Shown: piece by piece, positions 2,893 through 23,356 of the stretch
Position numbering within the stretch: the first letter of the stretch is position 1
How the letters are laid out: each line of letters opens with the position of its first letter
Source of the DNA: Candidatus Melainabacteria bacterium
Lineage (GTDB): Bacteria > Cyanobacteriota > Vampirovibrionia > 2-02-FULL-35-15
Length of the DNA stretch: 34,641 bases
Direction of reading: 5' to 3'
NCBI GenBank assembly: GCA_023250205.1
Contig: JAHFBE010000024.1
Span: forward strand, 1-34,641
Notes under the pieces: model-generated
What the model saw: the letters and a program-made list of their open reading frames with translations, nothing else
What the model was told of the DNA's origin: nothing
Databases searched by the model: none
Program-made: the position numbers and the translations under genes

Positions 2893-3303
2893 CACGTCAT
2901 TGCGAGGAGCATAAGCGACGAAGCAATCTCTAAAATGTTAAGAGCAAAACTTCTATATGAATAATAAATTCTATGTTTATATACTCACAAACAGGGCTAA
3001 AACTGTTTTATACACTGGTGTTACAAATGACTTAATAAGAAGAAGTATGAACACAAAGAAAAGTTACAAAAAGGGTTCACGAGTAAATATAACGTAAATC
3101 GACTAGTTTACTACGAAGAATTTGAGAGTATAAGTTCTGCTATTGCAAGAGAAAAACAGATTAAATCAGGATCAAGAGATGATAAGATTAAATTAATTCA
3201 TAAAATAAATGAAAAGTTTAATGATTTATATGAACAGTTATAGTTACTTATATTACATATAGGAGATTGCCACGCCTCATTTCATTCGGCTCGCAATGAC
3301 GTG
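2893..3303. mobile_element. Candidate 411-bp repeat-bounded element carrying a GIY-YIG gene
   Basis: The ends are a perfect 14-base inverted repeat: CACGTCATTGCGAG at 2893-2906 and its reverse complement at 3290-3303. Each end is a full copy of the local palindromic repeat (2895-2930 forward, 3263-3303 reverse), with inner borders GCAATCTC and GAGATTGC also inverted. The interior holds only a frameshifted GIY-YIG nuclease gene. I see no convincing target-site duplication. An inverted pair with the same borders but no gene occurs at 8699-8796. The repeats and inversion are directly visible; mobility is inference. Confidence 0.6.
2957..3243 (+). pseudogene. Frameshifted GIY-YIG nuclease-family gene
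   Basis: From the ATG at 2957 the reading is MNNKFYVYILTNRAKTVLYT then GVTNDLIRR, the start of a small stand-alone GIY-YIG domain (YVYIL for the first motif, YTGVT for the second, Arg in DLIRR). At about 3044-3045 one base is missing. The original frame stops at 3095-3097, while the -1 frame resumes YEHKEKLQKGFTSKYNVNRL, YYEEF, then AREKQIKSGSR and ends at 3243. The total is 287 bases, exactly one short of a 95-codon gene plus stop. Small GIY-YIG proteins of this type (UvrC/YhbQ-like) cut one DNA strand using the Tyr, Arg and Glu of the fold. The gene lies between inverted repeats, suggesting it belongs to the element. The lesion could be true decay or a single-base assembly error. Confidence 0.85.
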
Positions 3304-3320
3304 TGGAAAGGTAGACGACA

Positions 3321-5480: not shown

Positions 5481-6659
5481 TCATTGTGCAGTAATAAACA
5501 TTCCATTTTTTACTACATAAATAGAAAACTTAGGGTCAACAAGATCCCCCTTTTCATCAAATGAAATACTTCCAGTCAATCCGGGGAAATTCTTAGTCTC
5601 TCTAACAGCTTTAGCAATTTTTTCTGGGTTTTTCTCTTTCACTTTTTCAATTGCAGAAATTAAAATGTTTGTAGCATCAAATGAGTTTGCTGAATATGAC
5701 CCTGTTTCCTTTCCAAATTTTGACTTATAATCCTCTAGAAATTTCTTATCTTTTACTTCTGGCAAAGAAATGACTAAAGCTCTTTCACTATGATCTTTTG
5801 CAGAGCTAATGAACTCCTGATCAAAGACACCTTCACTCCCAAGAAATGCTGTTTTAAGCCCTGCATTTCTTAGTTGGCTCAGGAATTTAGCAGCATCACC
5901 ATACTCACCAATAAAAAATATAAGCTCCGGAGATTTTTGTTTTAGAGAACTTATTTGTTTTGAGAATTCATTAACTCCTACTTCATACATCTCATAAAAA
6001 ACAATATCAATACCATTCACTTTATTAACATAATTTAAAAATTCAGAGGCTAAACTTGCTCCATAACCTCTATTGTTATAAAGAACTGCCAGTTTTTTAA
6101 AATTTTGATTTACTGCAAAACTAGCTGAAAGCTCCCCTTGTTGGTCATCTCGTCCAATTGTTCTAAACACATAACCATTGACTGGTTTTCGCTCTGTAAA
6201 AAATGGATTTGTTGAACCTGGAGTAATTTCTGGAATCATTGCTCTTGAATAAATTTCTGAAGCAGGAATTGAAATATCTGAATTTAAATGTCCTACAACT
6301 CCAAGAACCATTTCATCAACAAGATTTCTTGCCTGCCAAGTTCCTTCTCCCGCAAGACCACCATCATCAACTGTTATTAATTCAATCTTTTTTCCATTAA
6401 TTCCACCAGATTGATTTTTTAAATCAACTGCTAATTGTGCTCCATTTATTATTGAAGAACCAAGTTCTTTATATGGTCCAAACTGTGGTGCAGCCACAGC
6501 TATTTTGTAGACATCTTTTTCTTTATTTAATGATGTTTGCTTGGAACAACCCGTAAAAAAAAGAAGCATGAAGCATGAGATAAGAAGCAAGAAGAAATTT
6601 ATTTTCTTCAAATCCTGATTCATATTTCTTGCTTCTTGTTTCATGTACTTATTTTTCAT
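5481..6659 (-). CDS. LivJ-like branched-chain amino-acid-type binding lipoprotein, copy 2
   Basis: A type I periplasmic binding protein of the Leu/Ile/Val family (IAVAAPQFGPY at the start of the mature domain, GVVGHLNSDISIPASE, SPELIFFIGEYGD, SYSANSFDATN). It should capture a small amino-acid-like ligand in the periplasm as a lipid-anchored protein. The lipobox FFTGC follows a hydrophobic stretch. The start is uncertain: the ATG at 6659 overlaps the end of the preceding gene by 11 bases, but an ATG at 6623 gives a cleaner signal peptide (MNQDLKKINFFLLLISC). The region 6561-6644 is a period-7 repeat with inverted arms, so these N-terminal codons and part of the signal peptide are repeat-derived. 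It is closely similar over its length to the gene at 6649-7791, indicating tandem duplication. No transporter permease or ATPase lies nearby. Confidence 0.9.
   Translation of the reverse strand: MKNKYMKQEARNMNQDLKKINFFLLLISCFMLLFFTGCSKQTSLNKEKDVYKIAVAAPQFGPYKELGSSIINGAQLAVDLKNQSGGINGKKIELITVDDGGLAGEGTWQARNLVDEMVLGVVGHLNSDISIPASEIYSRAMIPEITPGSTNPFFTERKPVNGYVFRTIGRDDQQGELSASFAVNQNFKKLAVLYNNRGYGASLASEFLNYVNKVNGIDIVFYEMYEVGVNEFSKQISSLKQKSPELIFFIGEYGDAAKFLSQLRNAGLKTAFLGSEGVFDQEFISSAKDHSERALVISLPEVKDKKFLEDYKSKFGKETGSYSANSFDATNILISAIEKVKEKNPEKIAKAVRETKNFPGLTGSISFDEKGDLVDPKFSIYVVKNGMFITAQ
6561..6644. repeat. Period-7 word array with inverted arms
   Basis: Left arm 6561-6595 is five successive 7-base words close to AAGAAGC/ATGAAGC. 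Right arm 6617-6644 is four such words in reverse complement. The 21 bases between them are the loop. The array covers the start region and signal-peptide codons of the LivJ-like gene at 5481-6659. Words are imperfect but keep the 7-base register throughout each arm. Confidence 0.65.
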
Positions 6660-7791
6660 TCGCCACCACCACAAATTTCCCGTTTACAACCTTACTTAAT
6701 ACAAAACCTGGTGAAATTAAGTCTCCATTTTTATCAAAGGAAATTGAACCACTGACTCCTTGAAAATCTTTTGTAGAGGAGACTTCTTTTGCGATTTTTT
6801 CAGAGTCCTTTGTTTTTATCTTTCTAATTGCCTCAATCAAGATATTTGTAGCATCATAAGAGTTTGCAGCATAACCAATTGGATCTTTTTGAAAATGCGT
6901 TTTATAAGCAAGGATAAAGTCTTTATCAACAATTGGAGCAGGGGAAATAACTACAGAACCTTCTGTGTTTTTTCCTCCAATTTTTATAAACTCTTCATTA
7001 TCTATTCCATCTCCGCCAATAAACTGCGTCATCCCTAATCCATATTTAGAAAAATCTTTTACTAAATTCCCGGCATCATCATGTTCTCCTGCAAGAAATA
7101 CAACATCTGGTTTATAGGAAGATAACTGAGTAACAAAAGAACCAAAATCTTTTCTGCCGACTTCTATCATGCTATAAAAAACTATCTGGGGTTTTATTCC
7201 AGGACTATTTTTCAAAGATTTCACAAACTCTCCTGCTAAGATCTTCCCATAAGCACGATCATTATATAAAACAGCCACTCTTTGAAACCGTTTCTTTATG
7301 GCATAATCAGCAAGCATCTTTCCCTGAGTATCATCACGACCTATTGTTCTGAATACATAACCTCTTGTACCTTCTCTTTCAGTAAAATATGGGCTTGTAC
7401 TCCCGGGGCTAATTTCAGGAACCATTGCACGAGTATAAAATTCTGAAGCTGGAATAGAAATATCTGAGTTCAGATGTCCTACAACACCTAGTACCATTTC
7501 TGTTCTGGTAAGTCTATATGCAAAAAATGCTCCTTCCCCAACAAGCCCACCATCGTCTTCTTTAATCAGAAGAAGTTTTTTACCACCGATTCCGCCATTC
7601 TTATTTGCTTTTTCTACAGCAAGCTCAGCACCATTAATAATAGATTCTCCAAGTAAAGCATAGGGACCACTTTGCGGAGCAACAACTGCAATTTTATAAG
7701 CATCTTCAGATTGTGGCGGAGTAAAGCAACCACTTAAAAATAAACTAATTATTAAAACTAAGAGATTGATATATGTTTTATTCACTTGCAT
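6649..7791 (-). CDS. LivJ-like branched-chain amino-acid-type binding lipoprotein, copy 1
   Basis: A 380-residue type I periplasmic binding protein. The signal peptide MQVNKTYINLLVLIISLFLS is followed by the lipobox Cys22, so the protein should be lipid-anchored facing the periplasm. The mature part begins YKIAVVAPQSGPYALLGESI and contains GVVGHLNSDISIPASE, SPGSTSPYFTERE and YVFRTIGRDD, all shared with its neighbour at 5481. By family it should bind branched-chain amino acids, amides or a related small ligand; the actual ligand cannot be read from sequence. AAGGA lies 4 bases before the ATG. The preceding pstS-like gene ends only 9 bases upstream, and the next gene overlaps its stop, giving a three-gene operon of binding proteins. 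Confidence 0.92.
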   Translation of the reverse strand: MQVNKTYINLLVLIISLFLSGCFTPPQSEDAYKIAVVAPQSGPYALLGESIINGAELAVEKANKNGGIGGKKLLLIKEDDGGLVGEGAFFAYRLTRTEMVLGVVGHLNSDISIPASEFYTRAMVPEISPGSTSPYFTEREGTRGYVFRTIGRDDTQGKMLADYAIKKRFQRVAVLYNDRAYGKILAGEFVKSLKNSPGIKPQIVFYSMIEVGRKDFGSFVTQLSSYKPDVVFLAGEHDDAGNLVKDFSKYGLGMTQFIGGDGIDNEEFIKIGGKNTEGSVVISPAPIVDKDFILAYKTHFQKDPIGYAANSYDATNILIEAIRKIKTKDSEKIAKEVSSTKDFQGVSGSISFDKNGDLISPGFVLSKVVNGKFVVVANEK

Positions 7792-7800
7792 TTTTCCTTT

Positions 7801-8823
7801 TTAATCAACTACCTTACTTGTTTTTAGTTTTTCACTTGATTTAATTCTATCTAATTCTTCAACTGAAGTAATAAGACTTACAGGCAAAAAACCTTCCTGA
7901 ACTACTATATCCTGCCCCTCAGGACTAAGAACATAATAAATGTATGCTAGCTCAAGTTCAGAAGAACCTTTTTTTATCGCATAGTACAAATCCCTAAATA
8001 AAGAATAATCTCCTTTATAAGCAGCTGCATATGTCGGAGGAACTCCATTTACTGAAATAGCTCTTACTGTATTATCTAAGTAACTAAATGGAAGGTATCC
8101 TATTGCATACTTAAAGTTTGCTACATTAGCTTTCATTTCTGAACTAGAGTTAGTAACCACAGACTTAAGTGTAATTAAAGTACCTTGTGCTTTCTTTTCC
8201 TTTGACTTTCCCATTACTAATTCTTCTATAGCTGATCTTGTCCCGTTTCCAGACGAATCATTAATTATCTGAATTGGTTTATCAAACGGTGCCCCCAGTT
8301 CTTTCCAGCTTGTAATCTTTCCTGCTAAAACATCCTTTAGCTGTTCAAGGGTAATATTTTTTATTGGATTTGAAGGATGGACCACTATTGAAAGGACATC
8401 ATGAGCTATTACAAAGACATCCAGGGTTTCACTTTCTTGGACTGTAAATTTTCTTGAACTTGCTGCAATTTGTGCAATTTTGTTTAATACTGCAATAGGA
8501 CCTGCACTGGAACCCCCACCTTGAACTAAGATATCAACCCCTGTTTTTTTTCTAAAGTTAGTAGCTAGATGTTCAGATAAAGGAAGTATTGTGGTAGAAC
8601 CTACAATTACAAGACGCGGATCTTTTGCTGAAGCTCTGGGAATGAATACTGAGAACTGAGTCAAGAAACAAAGAAAAATTATAAGAATAAAGCGGTTACA
8701 TGTCATTGCGAGGGCTTTAGCCCGAAGCAATCTCCCTAACTTTCTTATGTTCTGAGATTGCTTCGTCAGGACTATGCCCTTCCTCGCAATGACATGATTT
8801 GTTTGACTGTTTTCACTTAACAT
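7801..8823 (-). CDS. PstS-like phosphate-type substrate-binding protein
   Basis: A type II periplasmic binding protein of the phosphate (PstS) family. VIVGSTTILPLSEHLA, QGGGSSAGPIAV, AASSRKFT and NDSSGNGTRSAIEELV provide the Thr, Ser, Arg and Asp expected to hold an oxyanion. The C-terminal half has AIGYLPFSYLDN and LFRDLYYAIKKGS. Two starts are possible. The ATG at 8823 has GAGG 7 bases upstream and gives 340 residues with an odd basic leader. The ATG at 8706 gives 301 residues beginning with a proper signal peptide (MTCNRFILIIFLCFLTQF). The bases between are almost entirely an inverted pair of palindromic repeats (8699-8796) that stays open in this frame. It is the first gene of the binding-protein operon and is divergent from recN. 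There is no pstC, pstA or pstB here, so the name PstS is by family only. Confidence 0.88.
   Translation of the reverse strand: MLSENSQTNHVIARKGIVLTKQSQNIRKLGRLLRAKALAMTCNRFILIIFLCFLTQFSVFIPRASAKDPRLVIVGSTTILPLSEHLATNFRKKTGVDILVQGGGSSAGPIAVLNKIAQIAASSRKFTVQESETLDVFVIAHDVLSIVVHPSNPIKNITLEQLKDVLAGKITSWKELGAPFDKPIQIINDSSGNGTRSAIEELVMGKSKEKKAQGTLITLKSVVTNSSSEMKANVANFKYAIGYLPFSYLDNTVRAISVNGVPPTYAAAYKGDYSLFRDLYYAIKKGSSELELAYIYYVLSPEGQDIVVQEGFLPVSLITSVEELDRIKSSEKLKTSKVVD
8699..8796. mobile_element. 98-bp inverted pair of palindromic repeats in the pstS-like 5' region
   Basis: A perfect 15-base inverted repeat (CATGTCATTGCGAGG at 8699-8713, its complement at 8782-8796) encloses a second perfect 12-base pair (CGAAGCAATCTC at 8723-8734, complement at 8754-8765). 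About 20 bases separate the two copies. The borders equal those of the 411-bp element at 2893 but no gene lies inside, so it looks like a non-autonomous, MITE-like form. It could fold into one long hairpin in RNA. Confidence 0.75.
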
Positions 8824-8842
8824 TCTAAAGCCTCAGTCCTAT

Positions 8843-8848
8843 TATAAT
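8843..8848 (+). promoter_or_regulatory. -10 box of a likely leaderless recN transcript
   Basis: TATAAT ends 8 bases before the recN ATG and no Shine-Dalgarno is present. No good -35 hexamer stands at the usual 17-base distance. Confidence 0.55.
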
Positions 8849-8856
8849 AGATACTA

Positions 8857-10587
8857 ATGTTAACCCAACTCACCATAACCAACTTTGCGATAATAGATCA
8901 AATTGAATTAAGTTTTAAAGATAATTTTATTGTACTTACAGGAGAGACGGGAGCAGGTAAATCAATAATTGCTGATGCTATTGACTTTTTATTTGGTTCA
9001 AGAACAAGCTCAGATCAAATTAAGACAGGAACGACCAAAACTCAAGTTGAAGGAAGTTTTTTAATTTCAAATGATTTAAGCTCCTGGCTTGAAAAAAATG
9101 GATTTGAAAATCCTGAGAATAAAAATATTCTAACCGTATCTCGTGAGCTTACTACACAAGGATCAAAAGCAAGAATCAATGGTTCACTGACAAACGTAGC
9201 TCACCTTTTGTATTTAAGGAAACACCTGATTGATATTCATGAGCAGAGCGAGCATGTTGAACTTTTAAATCTTGAAAAACAATTAGATATTCTTGATAGC
9301 TATGGAGACAAACCACACGAAAAACTGCTCAATGATTATAAGAATTGTTTTGAAGAATACCAATTGACTAAGTCCCGGTTGAATAGTGTTCTTCAGGACT
9401 CAGAAGCCTTATCAAAAAAACAAAGCCAGCTTGAATTTGAAATTGAAGAGATTAAATCTGCCCAAATAAATATCCTAGATGAAGAAGAGAATCTTTTAGC
9501 AAAAAGAGAGATTCTTCTAAATAAGAAAGATTTGGTTGAAAATACAGGAGCAATCTATGAAATTATAAATGGAGAAGAACAACATAATCTTATTTTTAAC
9601 TTATCTCAAATCAAAAAACTTATTTCTAATTCCAACGAATTTGATAAATCATTTGAGCCATATTTAGAAACCATAGAAACAGTAATCTCAGAAGTAAAAG
9701 AACTTTCTTCATTTGTAAACAGCTATGCTGGCAGCATTGACTGCAATGAAGATGAACTGGAAGAGATTGAAAATAGACTGGATCTCTTTTATGACTTAAA
9801 GAGAAAATATGGGAAGACCATGATCGATATTCAGGAATACTACAAACAAATTCAACAAGAATACAAGGAATTAAAATCTACAAATGTTTCGCAGGATGAA
9901 CTTGAAAAAATCTTCAAACAAAAAGAAAAAGAAATAAACTCTTTAGCCGAAAGACTCACCAAATCAAGAGAAAAAATTACAGAGGGCTTTGTAAACAAAG
10001 TCAATGAGGAATTACAAACCCTTGGATTCAAGCATGCACTGCTTATTATCGAATTTACAGAATGCCTCATTTCAGAAAACGGAAAAGAACAAATTCAGTT
10101 TTTATTTACTGCTAATCCTGATGAGCCACCTAAACCGCTTTTAAAGGTAGCTTCAGGGGGGGAGCTTTCCAGAATAATGCTAGCAATCAAATCAACCACT
10201 TGCAGGGATGAAGCAATGTCTCATTCTAAAACAATGATTTTTGATGAAATTGATATGGGGGTTAGCGGTGAAATTGCTTCAAGTGTTGCAAAAAAACTTT
10301 ATAAAATCTCTAAGAACAATCAGGTGATTTGCATAACCCACCAACCAATACTTGCAGCAATGGCTGATAGTCATTTTGTAATTGAGAAAAATGTAAATGA
10401 CGGTATGACTTTTGTAAGAATAAAAGAAATTTTACAAAACGAAAAAGCAGAAGCATTAGCTACTCTATTAACTCCTGACAATAAACGAAAAGATGGAATC
10501 ACTGAAGAAGCTAAAAGATTTGCAAAATCACTTCTAGAAAATGCCGATACTATTAAAGGGAAAAATATAAAATTTGTGAATCGTTGA
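8857..10587 (+). CDS. recN: DNA repair protein RecN
   Basis: An SMC-like ATPase acting early in double-strand-break repair in the cytoplasm, where it helps hold DNA ends or sister chromatids together for recombination. The 576-residue length is typical. The N-terminal half-ATPase has Walker A GETGAGKS (29-36) after the family start MLTQLTITNFAIIDQIEL. IDIHEQSEHVELL is the RecN-typical segment. A long Glu/Lys-rich coiled coil fills the middle. The C-terminal half-ATPase carries the signature ASGGELSRIMLAIKS and Walker B IFDEIDMGVSGE, then ITHQPILAAMADSHF. It is transcribed alone, divergent from the pstS-like gene with only 33 bases between starts. No LexA-type box could be identified in that gap. 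Confidence 0.97.
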   Translation: MLTQLTITNFAIIDQIELSFKDNFIVLTGETGAGKSIIADAIDFLFGSRTSSDQIKTGTTKTQVEGSFLISNDLSSWLEKNGFENPENKNILTVSRELTTQGSKARINGSLTNVAHLLYLRKHLIDIHEQSEHVELLNLEKQLDILDSYGDKPHEKLLNDYKNCFEEYQLTKSRLNSVLQDSEALSKKQSQLEFEIEEIKSAQINILDEEENLLAKREILLNKKDLVENTGAIYEIINGEEQHNLIFNLSQIKKLISNSNEFDKSFEPYLETIETVISEVKELSSFVNSYAGSIDCNEDELEEIENRLDLFYDLKRKYGKTMIDIQEYYKQIQQEYKELKSTNVSQDELEKIFKQKEKEINSLAERLTKSREKITEGFVNKVNEELQTLGFKHALLIIEFTECLISENGKEQIQFLFTANPDEPPKPLLKVASGGELSRIMLAIKSTTCRDEAMSHSKTMIFDEIDMGVSGEIASSVAKKLYKISKNNQVICITHQPILAAMADSHFVIEKNVNDGMTFVRIKEILQNEKAEALATLLTPDNKRKDGITEEAKRFAKSLLENADTIKGKNIKFVNR

Positions 10588-21468: not shown

Positions 21469-21473
21469 GGAGT

Positions 21474-21573
21474 CTTAAGTCATAAGCTTTAAGTTATAAG
21501 AAGGAGAACGAAGGGACATGAGAAAAAAAGCAAAATAAAAAATCTTATAACTTACGACTTGCAACTTACAACT
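21474..21573. repeat. Period-7 word array with inverted arms between smc and scpA
   Basis: Left arm 21474-21501 has four words with AAGT or AAGC every 7 bases. Right arm 21544-21573 has four words in reverse complement (CTTATAA, CTTACGA, CTTGCAA, CTTACAA). Aligned in reverse complement, 24-base arms agree at 18 positions. The 42-base loop is purine-rich. The right arm ends 6 bases before the scpA ATG and would place the start next to a stem. Confidence 0.65.
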
Positions 21574-22545: not shown

Positions 22546-23356
22546 AATAGAGCCGAGGCAAGAAGTAGGAAGCATGACACAGGAAGAAGAAAACGCCGAG
22601 AATGTCATTGCGAGGAGTGAAGCGACGAAGCAATCTCATAACGAATCTGACAATAAAGAACCTACAAATGAAACAGAAGCTTCTCAAGATAGCACTGATA
22701 CAGAAGAAGTCATTGAAGAAACTACTTATACTGAAGAGGTATCCGAATCTTATTTAGGTGGCATTGCAAGTGCTCTGAAATCCGATTTAAAGGCACAAGT
22801 TGAAGCAATATTATTTGTTTCTGATACACCACTAAAAACTGGTGCGATTTCTAAAATGCTAAATGCATCTTATGATGATGTTCAATTAGCCCTTGTCCAG
22901 TTAATTCAGGAATACGAAGATAAAAATGGTGGACTGGAAATAGGAACTGATGATGGATATATTATTCAGGTAAAAACTCAATATCTAAATATAGTTACTG
23001 ACATGATGCCACTTGAGCTGAATCCTGGTCCTATGAGAACTCTTTCTGCTATTGCCCTTAAAGAACCAGTGCTTCAATCCGAGGTTATAGATATGAGAGG
23101 ATCGGGGGCATATGACCACATAAATGACCTTGTGGAACAAGACTTAATCACAAAAAAACCTCAGGGACTTTCATATATTTTAAGAACTACAACAAAATTC
23201 CAGCAATATTTCAGACTTACTAAAGATGCCAATAAAATAAAAGAACGTCTCCAAGAGCAAGCGACAAAGAGAGCAAAAGAAAAGCAAAAGCTCGAAGAAG
23301 AAGCTCAAAGCGTACAACAGCTTGCAATAGGAACTCAAGAATCTGTTGCTGGTTAG
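22538..23356 (+). CDS. scpB: Segregation and condensation protein B
   Basis: Dimeric winged-helix partner of ScpA in the SMC complex. The conserved core starts at LKAQVEAILFVSDTPLKTGA and continues through LELNPGPMRTLSAIALKEPV, RGSGAYDHINDLVEQDLI and GLSYILRTTTKFQQYF. The ATG at 22538 has AGGAGG about 9 bases upstream and overlaps the scpA stop by 8 bases. Before the core is an acidic low-complexity leader of about 80 residues, and within it VIARSEATKQSH is encoded by a full copy of the palindromic repeat (22602-22639). The C-terminus adds a charged coiled-coil-like tail. The leader is not part of the family fold and should be disordered. Confidence 0.95.
   Translation: MNEIEPRQEVGSMTQEEENAENVIARSEATKQSHNESDNKEPTNETEASQDSTDTEEVIEETTYTEEVSESYLGGIASALKSDLKAQVEAILFVSDTPLKTGAISKMLNASYDDVQLALVQLIQEYEDKNGGLEIGTDDGYIIQVKTQYLNIVTDMMPLELNPGPMRTLSAIALKEPVLQSEVIDMRGSGAYDHINDLVEQDLITKKPQGLSYILRTTTKFQQYFRLTKDANKIKERLQEQATKRAKEKQKLEEEAQSVQQLAIGTQESVAG
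22602..22639 (+). repeat. Solo palindromic repeat inside scpB
   Basis: A single forward copy from GTCATTGCGAGGAG to GACGAAGCAATCTCA, preserving the scpB reading frame. It has the same borders as the copies at 2895-2930 and 8699-8735, but without an inverted partner nearby. Confidence 0.85.

Follow-up and report, generated by a model that had tools for sequence, protein, structure and literature searches.

A hairpin-forming palindromic dimer in the 5' codons of a pstS-like gene of Candidatus Melainabacteria and small GIY-YIG genes bounded by the same arms

The window analysed in this study, a stretch of 34,641 nucleotides, comes from genome G000, a 2.08-Mb bin of 83 contigs from a groundwater Candidatus Melainabacteria. 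It contains a pstS-like gene on the minus strand with a repeat in its 5' codons, a recN-like gene that diverges from it, and two genes of the Peripla_BP_6 family downstream. The features of this locus are as follows; G001 is a second genome of the same genus.

5481 to 7791, minus strand: two Peripla_BP_6 genes that follow the pstS-like gene (profile match).
7801 to 8823, minus strand: pstS-like substrate-binding protein of 340 amino acids (PF12849, 1.4e-33); ATG 8823 is the favoured start and ATG 8706, in the repeat, the alternative.
8699 to 8796, minus strand: gene-less palindromic dimer of two inward-facing arms in the 5' codons of the pstS-like gene (sequence and fold z-score; one of 41 dimers collected from the genome).
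8699 to 8713: outer arm 1, CATGTCATTGCGAGG (sequence).
8723 to 8734: inner arm 1, CGAAGCAATCTC (sequence), nearly invariant in 23 aligned dimers.
8754 to 8765: inner arm 2, GAGATTGCTTCG (sequence and the 23-dimer alignment).
8782 to 8796: outer arm 2, CCTCGCAATGACATG (sequence), the perfect 15-bp complement of outer arm 1.
8831 to 8834, minus strand: GAGG, a Shine-Dalgarno-like site 7 nt upstream of ATG 8823, conserved in G001.
8840 to 8849: TATTATAATA, a palindromic, self-complementary -10-like box kept in nearly all orthologs of the family (alignment).
8857 to 10587, plus strand: recN-like gene, the divergent neighbour and synteny anchor (PF02463, 1.7e-14).

The match of the pstS-like protein to TIGR02136 is below the cut-off. 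Its orthologs in the family share 67 to 81% identity, and the gene is retained in all 10 family genomes searched; the relatives retrieved with the protein belong to Candidatus Melainabacteria, and several carry names of groundwater isolates. Judged from the spacing, the pstS-like gene and the two Peripla_BP_6 genes form a putative three-gene operon. The latter two are adjacent paralogs, and such a mix of binding-protein families in one cluster is unusual. The TATTATAATA box is probably the shared -10 element of the divergent pstS-like and recN genes, and 8840 to 8849 is likely to be a bidirectional promoter with very short leaders.

The repeat at 8699 to 8796 is a 98-nt nested, near-perfect palindrome capable of forming a hairpin, as can be read directly from the sequence. 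Its borders are those of a GIY-YIG-bearing element in the same window, as an earlier note on this DNA had pointed out, i.e., outer pairs of 15 bases and inner pairs of 12 bases, and with these arms it is a gene-less copy of that element. The inner arms pair over 12 bp and enclose a 19-nt loop. The RNA fold has an energy of -50.9 kcal/mol versus -21.4 +/- 3.3 kcal/mol for dinucleotide shuffles (z = -8.9; 0 of 200), and the DNA fold has a z-score of -9.6. A chance palindrome is ruled out by these fold scores together with the 297 copies of the arm motif against none in the control (see below), and an assembly artefact is ruled out because G001, which is a separate assembly, carries an arm at the identical base. 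An Rfam search gave no credible match. The segment belongs to a family of REP-like repeats with a CGTC/TGTC tag, of which it is a hairpin-forming, non-autonomous dimer; other copies of this family are present in the window.

1 to 103: a further dimer, cut by the contig end (sequence).
2896 to 3300, plus strand: the GIY-YIG-bearing version of the element (borders at about 2894 to 3304), with a frameshifted (decayed) gene at 2957 to 3241 (sequence and profile search).
22604 to 22638, plus strand: a single in-frame arm in the part of scpB that encodes the N-terminal linker; G002, a third genome of the genus, has it too.

The arm motif TCATTGCGAG occurs 297 times in the G000 genome (149 forward and 148 reverse; reversed control, 0), and the mobile palindromes number roughly a hundred or more. 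Stretches around about 100 of these motifs were collected, so the dimer set is a sample and not the full complement; it comprises 41 inward-facing dimers and 28 single arms. Measured from GTC to GAC, 39 of the 41 dimers are 86 to 149 nt long (median, 96), and the other two are about 400 nt long. The consensus of 23 aligned dimers is GTCATTGCGAGGA-(variable small hairpin)-GACGAAGCAATCTC-(spacer)-GAGATTGCTTCGTC-(variable hairpin)-CTCCTCGCAATGAC. The left end is GTCATT in every dimer, and the preceding base is C or T in 40 of the 41. The small hairpin of the arm varies in sequence and keeps its pairing, with 10 and 11 compensatory double changes at column pairs 14-30 and 15-29, respectively. A scan of offsets and lengths around the 41 dimers yielded no consistent flanking direct repeat, i.e., no target-site duplication of fixed length. 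Across the family, the motif count ranges from 10 to 297 per genome, whereas several families elsewhere in the class have almost none. A further inverted repeat (GGATRAG ... CTYATCC) encloses the dimers at L043, L053, L058, L063, L077, and L078, as has also been reported for some other CGTC dimers; it may be a target palindrome or part of a composite element. At G001 sites (L206, i.e., G001:C6) matching L062:712 and L062:6108, where G000 has the present family, G001 has related palindromes of the TGTCATTCTGA or GTCCCGAGG type, which may reflect hot spots or conversion between repeat families. A different type of imperfect inverted repeat pair (AGTCTTAAGTCATAAGC... / ...CTTACGACTTGCAACT, 41 nt apart) is located at 21471 to 21573.

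In the pstS-like gene, the dimer begins 24 nt past the conserved start codon at 8823 and lies ahead of the signal peptide. The frame is open from ATG 8823 across the dimer into the protein, in agreement with the earlier note, and ATG 8706 follows 39 codons after ATG 8823. The N-terminus encoded from ATG 8823 reads MLSENSQTNH-VIARKGIVLTKQSQNIRKLGRLLRAKALAMT-CNRFILIIFLCFL..., the middle part of which is the dimer. The proposal that the product gains about 40 basic residues needs a small correction: from ATG 8823, the 39 residues that precede Met40 include eight Lys or Arg residues, one His, and one Glu, and about 32 of the 39 are encoded by the dimer.

In G001, whose protein is 81% identical, a solo arm lies at the identical base, in frame and 63 nt shorter. 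Its N-terminus is MLSKESQISH-VIARKDKVL-LTCSHFFLVAVLF..., with the same ATG and the same GAGG-N7-ATG, and the 30-nt lead from the ATG aligns between the two genomes without gaps. The dimer is absent from this site in G002 and in the other genera of the family, in which the N-termini are mostly compact. This absence supports the view of the repeat as an insertion. The empty sites that the earlier note had suggested looking for do exist in G002 and in the other genera; the solo arm of G001, on the other hand, means that the insertion is not private to G000, and a recent insertion confined to that genome was rejected on this ground. A tree of RecN and the neighbouring binding protein groups G001 with G002 (96/96) and places G000 outside. 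Because G002, the sister of G001, lacks the dimer, a single loss or else two gains at the same base must be assumed, and the simplest history is a probable gain on the genus stem followed by erosion in G001 and loss in G002. Loss of old copies is common, since at another locus a dimer is common to G000 and G001 (G002 lacks both the dimer and some of the flanking sequence) and the scpB arm is common to G000 and G002. "Empty" sites in G002 often also miss flanking bases; they therefore mostly look like deletion products and are poorly suited for reading the target site. The scpB arm is at the same place in G002, with about 34 identical nucleotides between far more diverged flanks, a pattern suggestive of repeated insertion or of gene conversion among copies.

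The pstS-like gene is not the only host of in-frame copies. At least 10 of the 41 sampled dimers are in frame inside long open reading frames, most with Pfam support; the hosts are an SNase, an MtnA-like protein (two copies), MetH, MurT, a PrmC-like protein, a patatin, two very large proteins, and the pstS-like protein. Single arms are in frame in a CCG-type iron-sulphur protein, a CCA/PolyA_pol protein, and ScpB. The MtnA-like gene (IF-2B family; L052:2163-3386) is one open reading frame with two separate in-frame dimers. Stop-free frames through dimers amount to 51 of 234 (approximately 22%), and 20 of 39 dimer lengths are divisible by three (binomial p = 0.015). In the patatin gene, the dimer follows the native start, which adjoins the end of the preceding gene, and again precedes the signal peptide; G002 has a plain gene, and G001 has a degraded copy through which the frame is still open. 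For any one gene, an open frame in two genomes has a sizeable probability of arising by chance.

G000 contains three GIY-YIG genes, i.e., uvrC, an intact small gene (C39), and the frameshifted gene in the window. Both small genes are located exactly between inward-facing arms of the dimer family. Five more small GIY-YIG genes with both arms were found in the family, compared with none of nine uvrC genes. The C39 protein matches PF01541 (4.8e-14) and has the motifs YYVYI, LYTGVT, GRR, and EREKQIK; by its sequence, the element-borne protein is a single-domain member of the GIY-YIG superfamily of approximately 95 amino acids. The palindromes far outnumber the nuclease genes.

Small GIY-YIG genes are associated with such arms well beyond this family. 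Among Cyanobacteriota, YGTCATY tags are present on both sides of 16 of 41 non-redundant small GIY-YIG genes versus 2 of 164 shifted control windows (p = 5e-11), and an inverted-repeat score of at least 24 is found for 24 of these genes versus 9 controls (p = 2e-13). The flanking arms vary by lineage (e.g., TGTCATTGCGAGCGAACGCGAAGCAATCCAGC and arms of the TGTCATCCTGAAC and TGTCATTCCCGCG types), and those at L223 and L227 have a CCA tail. In a plasmid sample from Rhizobiaceae, Azospirillum, Novosphingobium, Sphingobium, Spirosoma, and Planktothrix, an arm score of at least 33 was observed at 12 of 15 small GIY-YIG loci versus 1 of 59 controls, and several of these arms match the CGTC-REP form (e.g., CGTCATCCTCGGGCTTGACCCGAGGATCCA). 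All four matches to this REP on Sinorhizobium meliloti pSymB (3.7 Mb) and all three on a Neorhizobium replicon surround the GIY-YIG gene, and since the matches occur there only, the link is not a by-product of dense repeats. REP-bounded GIY-YIG genes are thus found in Melainabacteria, filamentous cyanobacteria, Alphaproteobacteria, and one Bacteroidota plasmid (Cyanobacteriota, Pseudomonadota, and Bacteroidota), and about half of the small GIY-YIG genes are without recognisable arms. In Azospirillum lipoferum (L256:584-1100), a REP-bounded GIY-YIG gene lies between sufB and sufC in an otherwise conserved operon, and in Sphingomonas paeninsulae (L265:701-1069), a small GIY-YIG-like gene without recognisable arms lies between rnc and era.

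CGTC-tagged REPs have been described as paired units with intragenic copies that "apparently lack a dedicated transposase" (Di Nocera et al. 2013, PMC3733652), and RPE-6 and RPE-4 were equated with CGTC-1 and CGTC-4 in the same study. The G000 family resembles these REPs in several respects: the outer ends carry the tag CGTC or TGTC, the stem starts with AT, most units occur in pairs separated by 20 to 100 nt, the copies number in the tens to hundreds and include intragenic ones, the distribution is patchy, and inverted dimers outnumber single arms in the sample (41 versus 28). On the other hand, its unit consists of a 5-bp ATTGC/GCAAT stem, a nested variable hairpin, and a CTC tail, whereas CGTC REPs have an 8- to 9-bp stem, a 4- to 5-nt loop, and a CCA tail; furthermore, its arms flank a GIY-YIG gene, whereas the CGTC REPs of PMC3733652 have no associated transposase and GIY-YIG is unmentioned there. 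Because the tag, the dimer form, and the behaviour are common to both while the stem and loop dimensions differ, we regard the G000 family as a variant, not a proven member, of the CGTC-tagged REPs. In-frame palindromes in proteins are known from Rickettsia (reviewed in PMC10969869), and like them the present palindromes lie in frame within conserved proteins and add tens of residues; the host phylum is different, however, and the likeness noted here is one of behaviour. The arrangement of short inverted hairpin units around a small gene for a DNA-processing enzyme, with many gene-less doublets, is also that of GTAG REPs and REPINs with their RAYT (Y1 HUH), except that the ends are YGTC without a GTAG tag and the enzyme is GIY-YIG and not Y1. 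Classical MITEs likewise are non-coding and multicopy, with terminal inverted repeats and a coding parent, but the 41 dimers lack a fixed-length target-site duplication, and the parent here carries a nuclease and no known transposase. Among open-access journal articles, no paper describing a link of GIY-YIG with REPs, RAYTs, or palindromes was found, and priority is not claimed. A term search of the text gave no sign of a GIY-YIG-REP link in a 2025 REP survey (PMC12306157) and a 2006 GIY-YIG phylogenomic survey (PMC1564403), and the repeat sequences themselves gave only unrelated primer matches in the literature.

The best explanation as a whole, to which we assign a probability of about two in three, is that the palindrome is a dimer of a family moved by a GIY-YIG nuclease, that it entered on the genus stem, and that it is read through from ATG 8823. 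The putative autonomous form carries the gene for the approximately 95-amino-acid single-domain nuclease between the same arms. This nuclease has no added DNA-binding domain; its substrate would be the YGTC-ended arms in their folded state, perhaps single-stranded or cruciform, into which it would introduce nicks or cuts. Host repair would then copy the arms elsewhere without a target-site duplication of fixed length, and the gene-less dimers would be moved in trans. One such dimer would have inserted into the pstS-like gene, after the native start codon and ahead of the codons for the signal peptide. Synthesis would begin at the native ATG 8823, with the Shine-Dalgarno site and the ATG upstream of the hairpin, and proceed through the dimer, so that the N-terminus would be extended by about 39 residues, basic in character, ahead of the signal peptide. 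The export machinery would have to accommodate this extension, which is most likely tolerated rather than adaptive. In-frame copies in conserved genes would be expected because only in-frame, stop-free intragenic insertions would survive selection.

An alternative, which we consider rather improbable, is that the dimer is untranslated; the start would then be ATG 8706 in the arm (CGCAATGAC), and the hairpin would act as a 5' leader that reduces or controls expression. A normal-looking signal peptide (MTCNRFILIIFLCFL) follows immediately after ATG 8706, the homologous codon in G001 is TTG, the patatin gene has the same ATG at the same place, and the argument that many N-terminal REPs are extragenic (Di Nocera et al. 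2013, PMC3733652) favours such a start. However, no Shine-Dalgarno sequence lies upstream of ATG 8706, which is buried in the stem, paired with a probability near 1 in every fold tried; moreover, a frame kept open in G001 for both the pstS-like and the patatin genes would be needless if ATG 8706 were used. The predicted pairing of the Shine-Dalgarno site and ATG 8823 changes with the length folded, so RNA accessibility was not used as proof of start choice. Of the two starts that the earlier note had left side by side, ATG 8823 is the likely one, because GAGG-N7-ATG is conserved, the frame is kept in G001, and ATG 8706 lies in the stem, and mainly because the patatin gene repeats the order of ATG, dimer, and signal peptide. 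It could also be supposed that the insertion disabled the gene and that the open frame is a fortuitous trait of a decaying pseudogene: the genome has many such insertions, and with only about 22% of random dimer frames open most genic insertions should be disruptive. We give this very little credence, as some 300 codons downstream remain intact, with 81% identity to G001, and the gene persists throughout the family genomes searched. Retention of the palindrome as a transcription terminator or attenuator of the recN/pst divergent region, which a long stable hairpin in a transcribed region might suggest, is just as hard to credit, since no T tract follows the hairpin, the hairpin is inside an open frame, and G002 and the other genera have the same gene arrangement without the palindrome.

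As for the agent of movement, a HUH/Y1 (RAYT-like) or DDE transposase encoded by the host or by an IS might instead mobilise the repeats, with the GIY-YIG gene as a passenger that docks at them. HUH-type elements lack a fixed target-site duplication, and in this respect the dimers resemble them; the G000 genome has one Y1_Tnp match, and GIY-YIG homing nucleases can be passengers. No arms lie within 1.5 kb of that sole Y1 locus, however, and a Y1/RAYT mobiliser was rejected on this ground. Moreover, in several phyla the nuclease gene is flanked by whichever REP type is local (ATTGCGAG, ATCCTCGGG, ATCCCCGCG, and GCCCCGTG), and on two replicons the matched REPs occur only around the GIY-YIG gene. 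We therefore hold movement by another transposase to be unlikely, and mobilisation by the GIY-YIG nuclease is the reading that the genomic associations suggest.

Since the CGTC REPs were described in 2013 without a dedicated transposase, the GIY-YIG nuclease is a strong candidate for the missing enzyme. In its widest form, for which we see even odds, the proposal is that small single-domain GIY-YIG proteins are the dedicated mobility enzymes of a CGTC REP superfamily in several phyla; they would parallel the RAYT/REPIN system, although they have no known transposase fold, and would be a source of protein-coding insertions. The pstS-like insertion is a clear case of an in-frame palindrome between a start codon and a signal peptide that can be dated by comparison within a genus, and the link between CGTC-type REPs and small GIY-YIG proteins makes the question of the missing transposase testable with one purified protein and one oligonucleotide.
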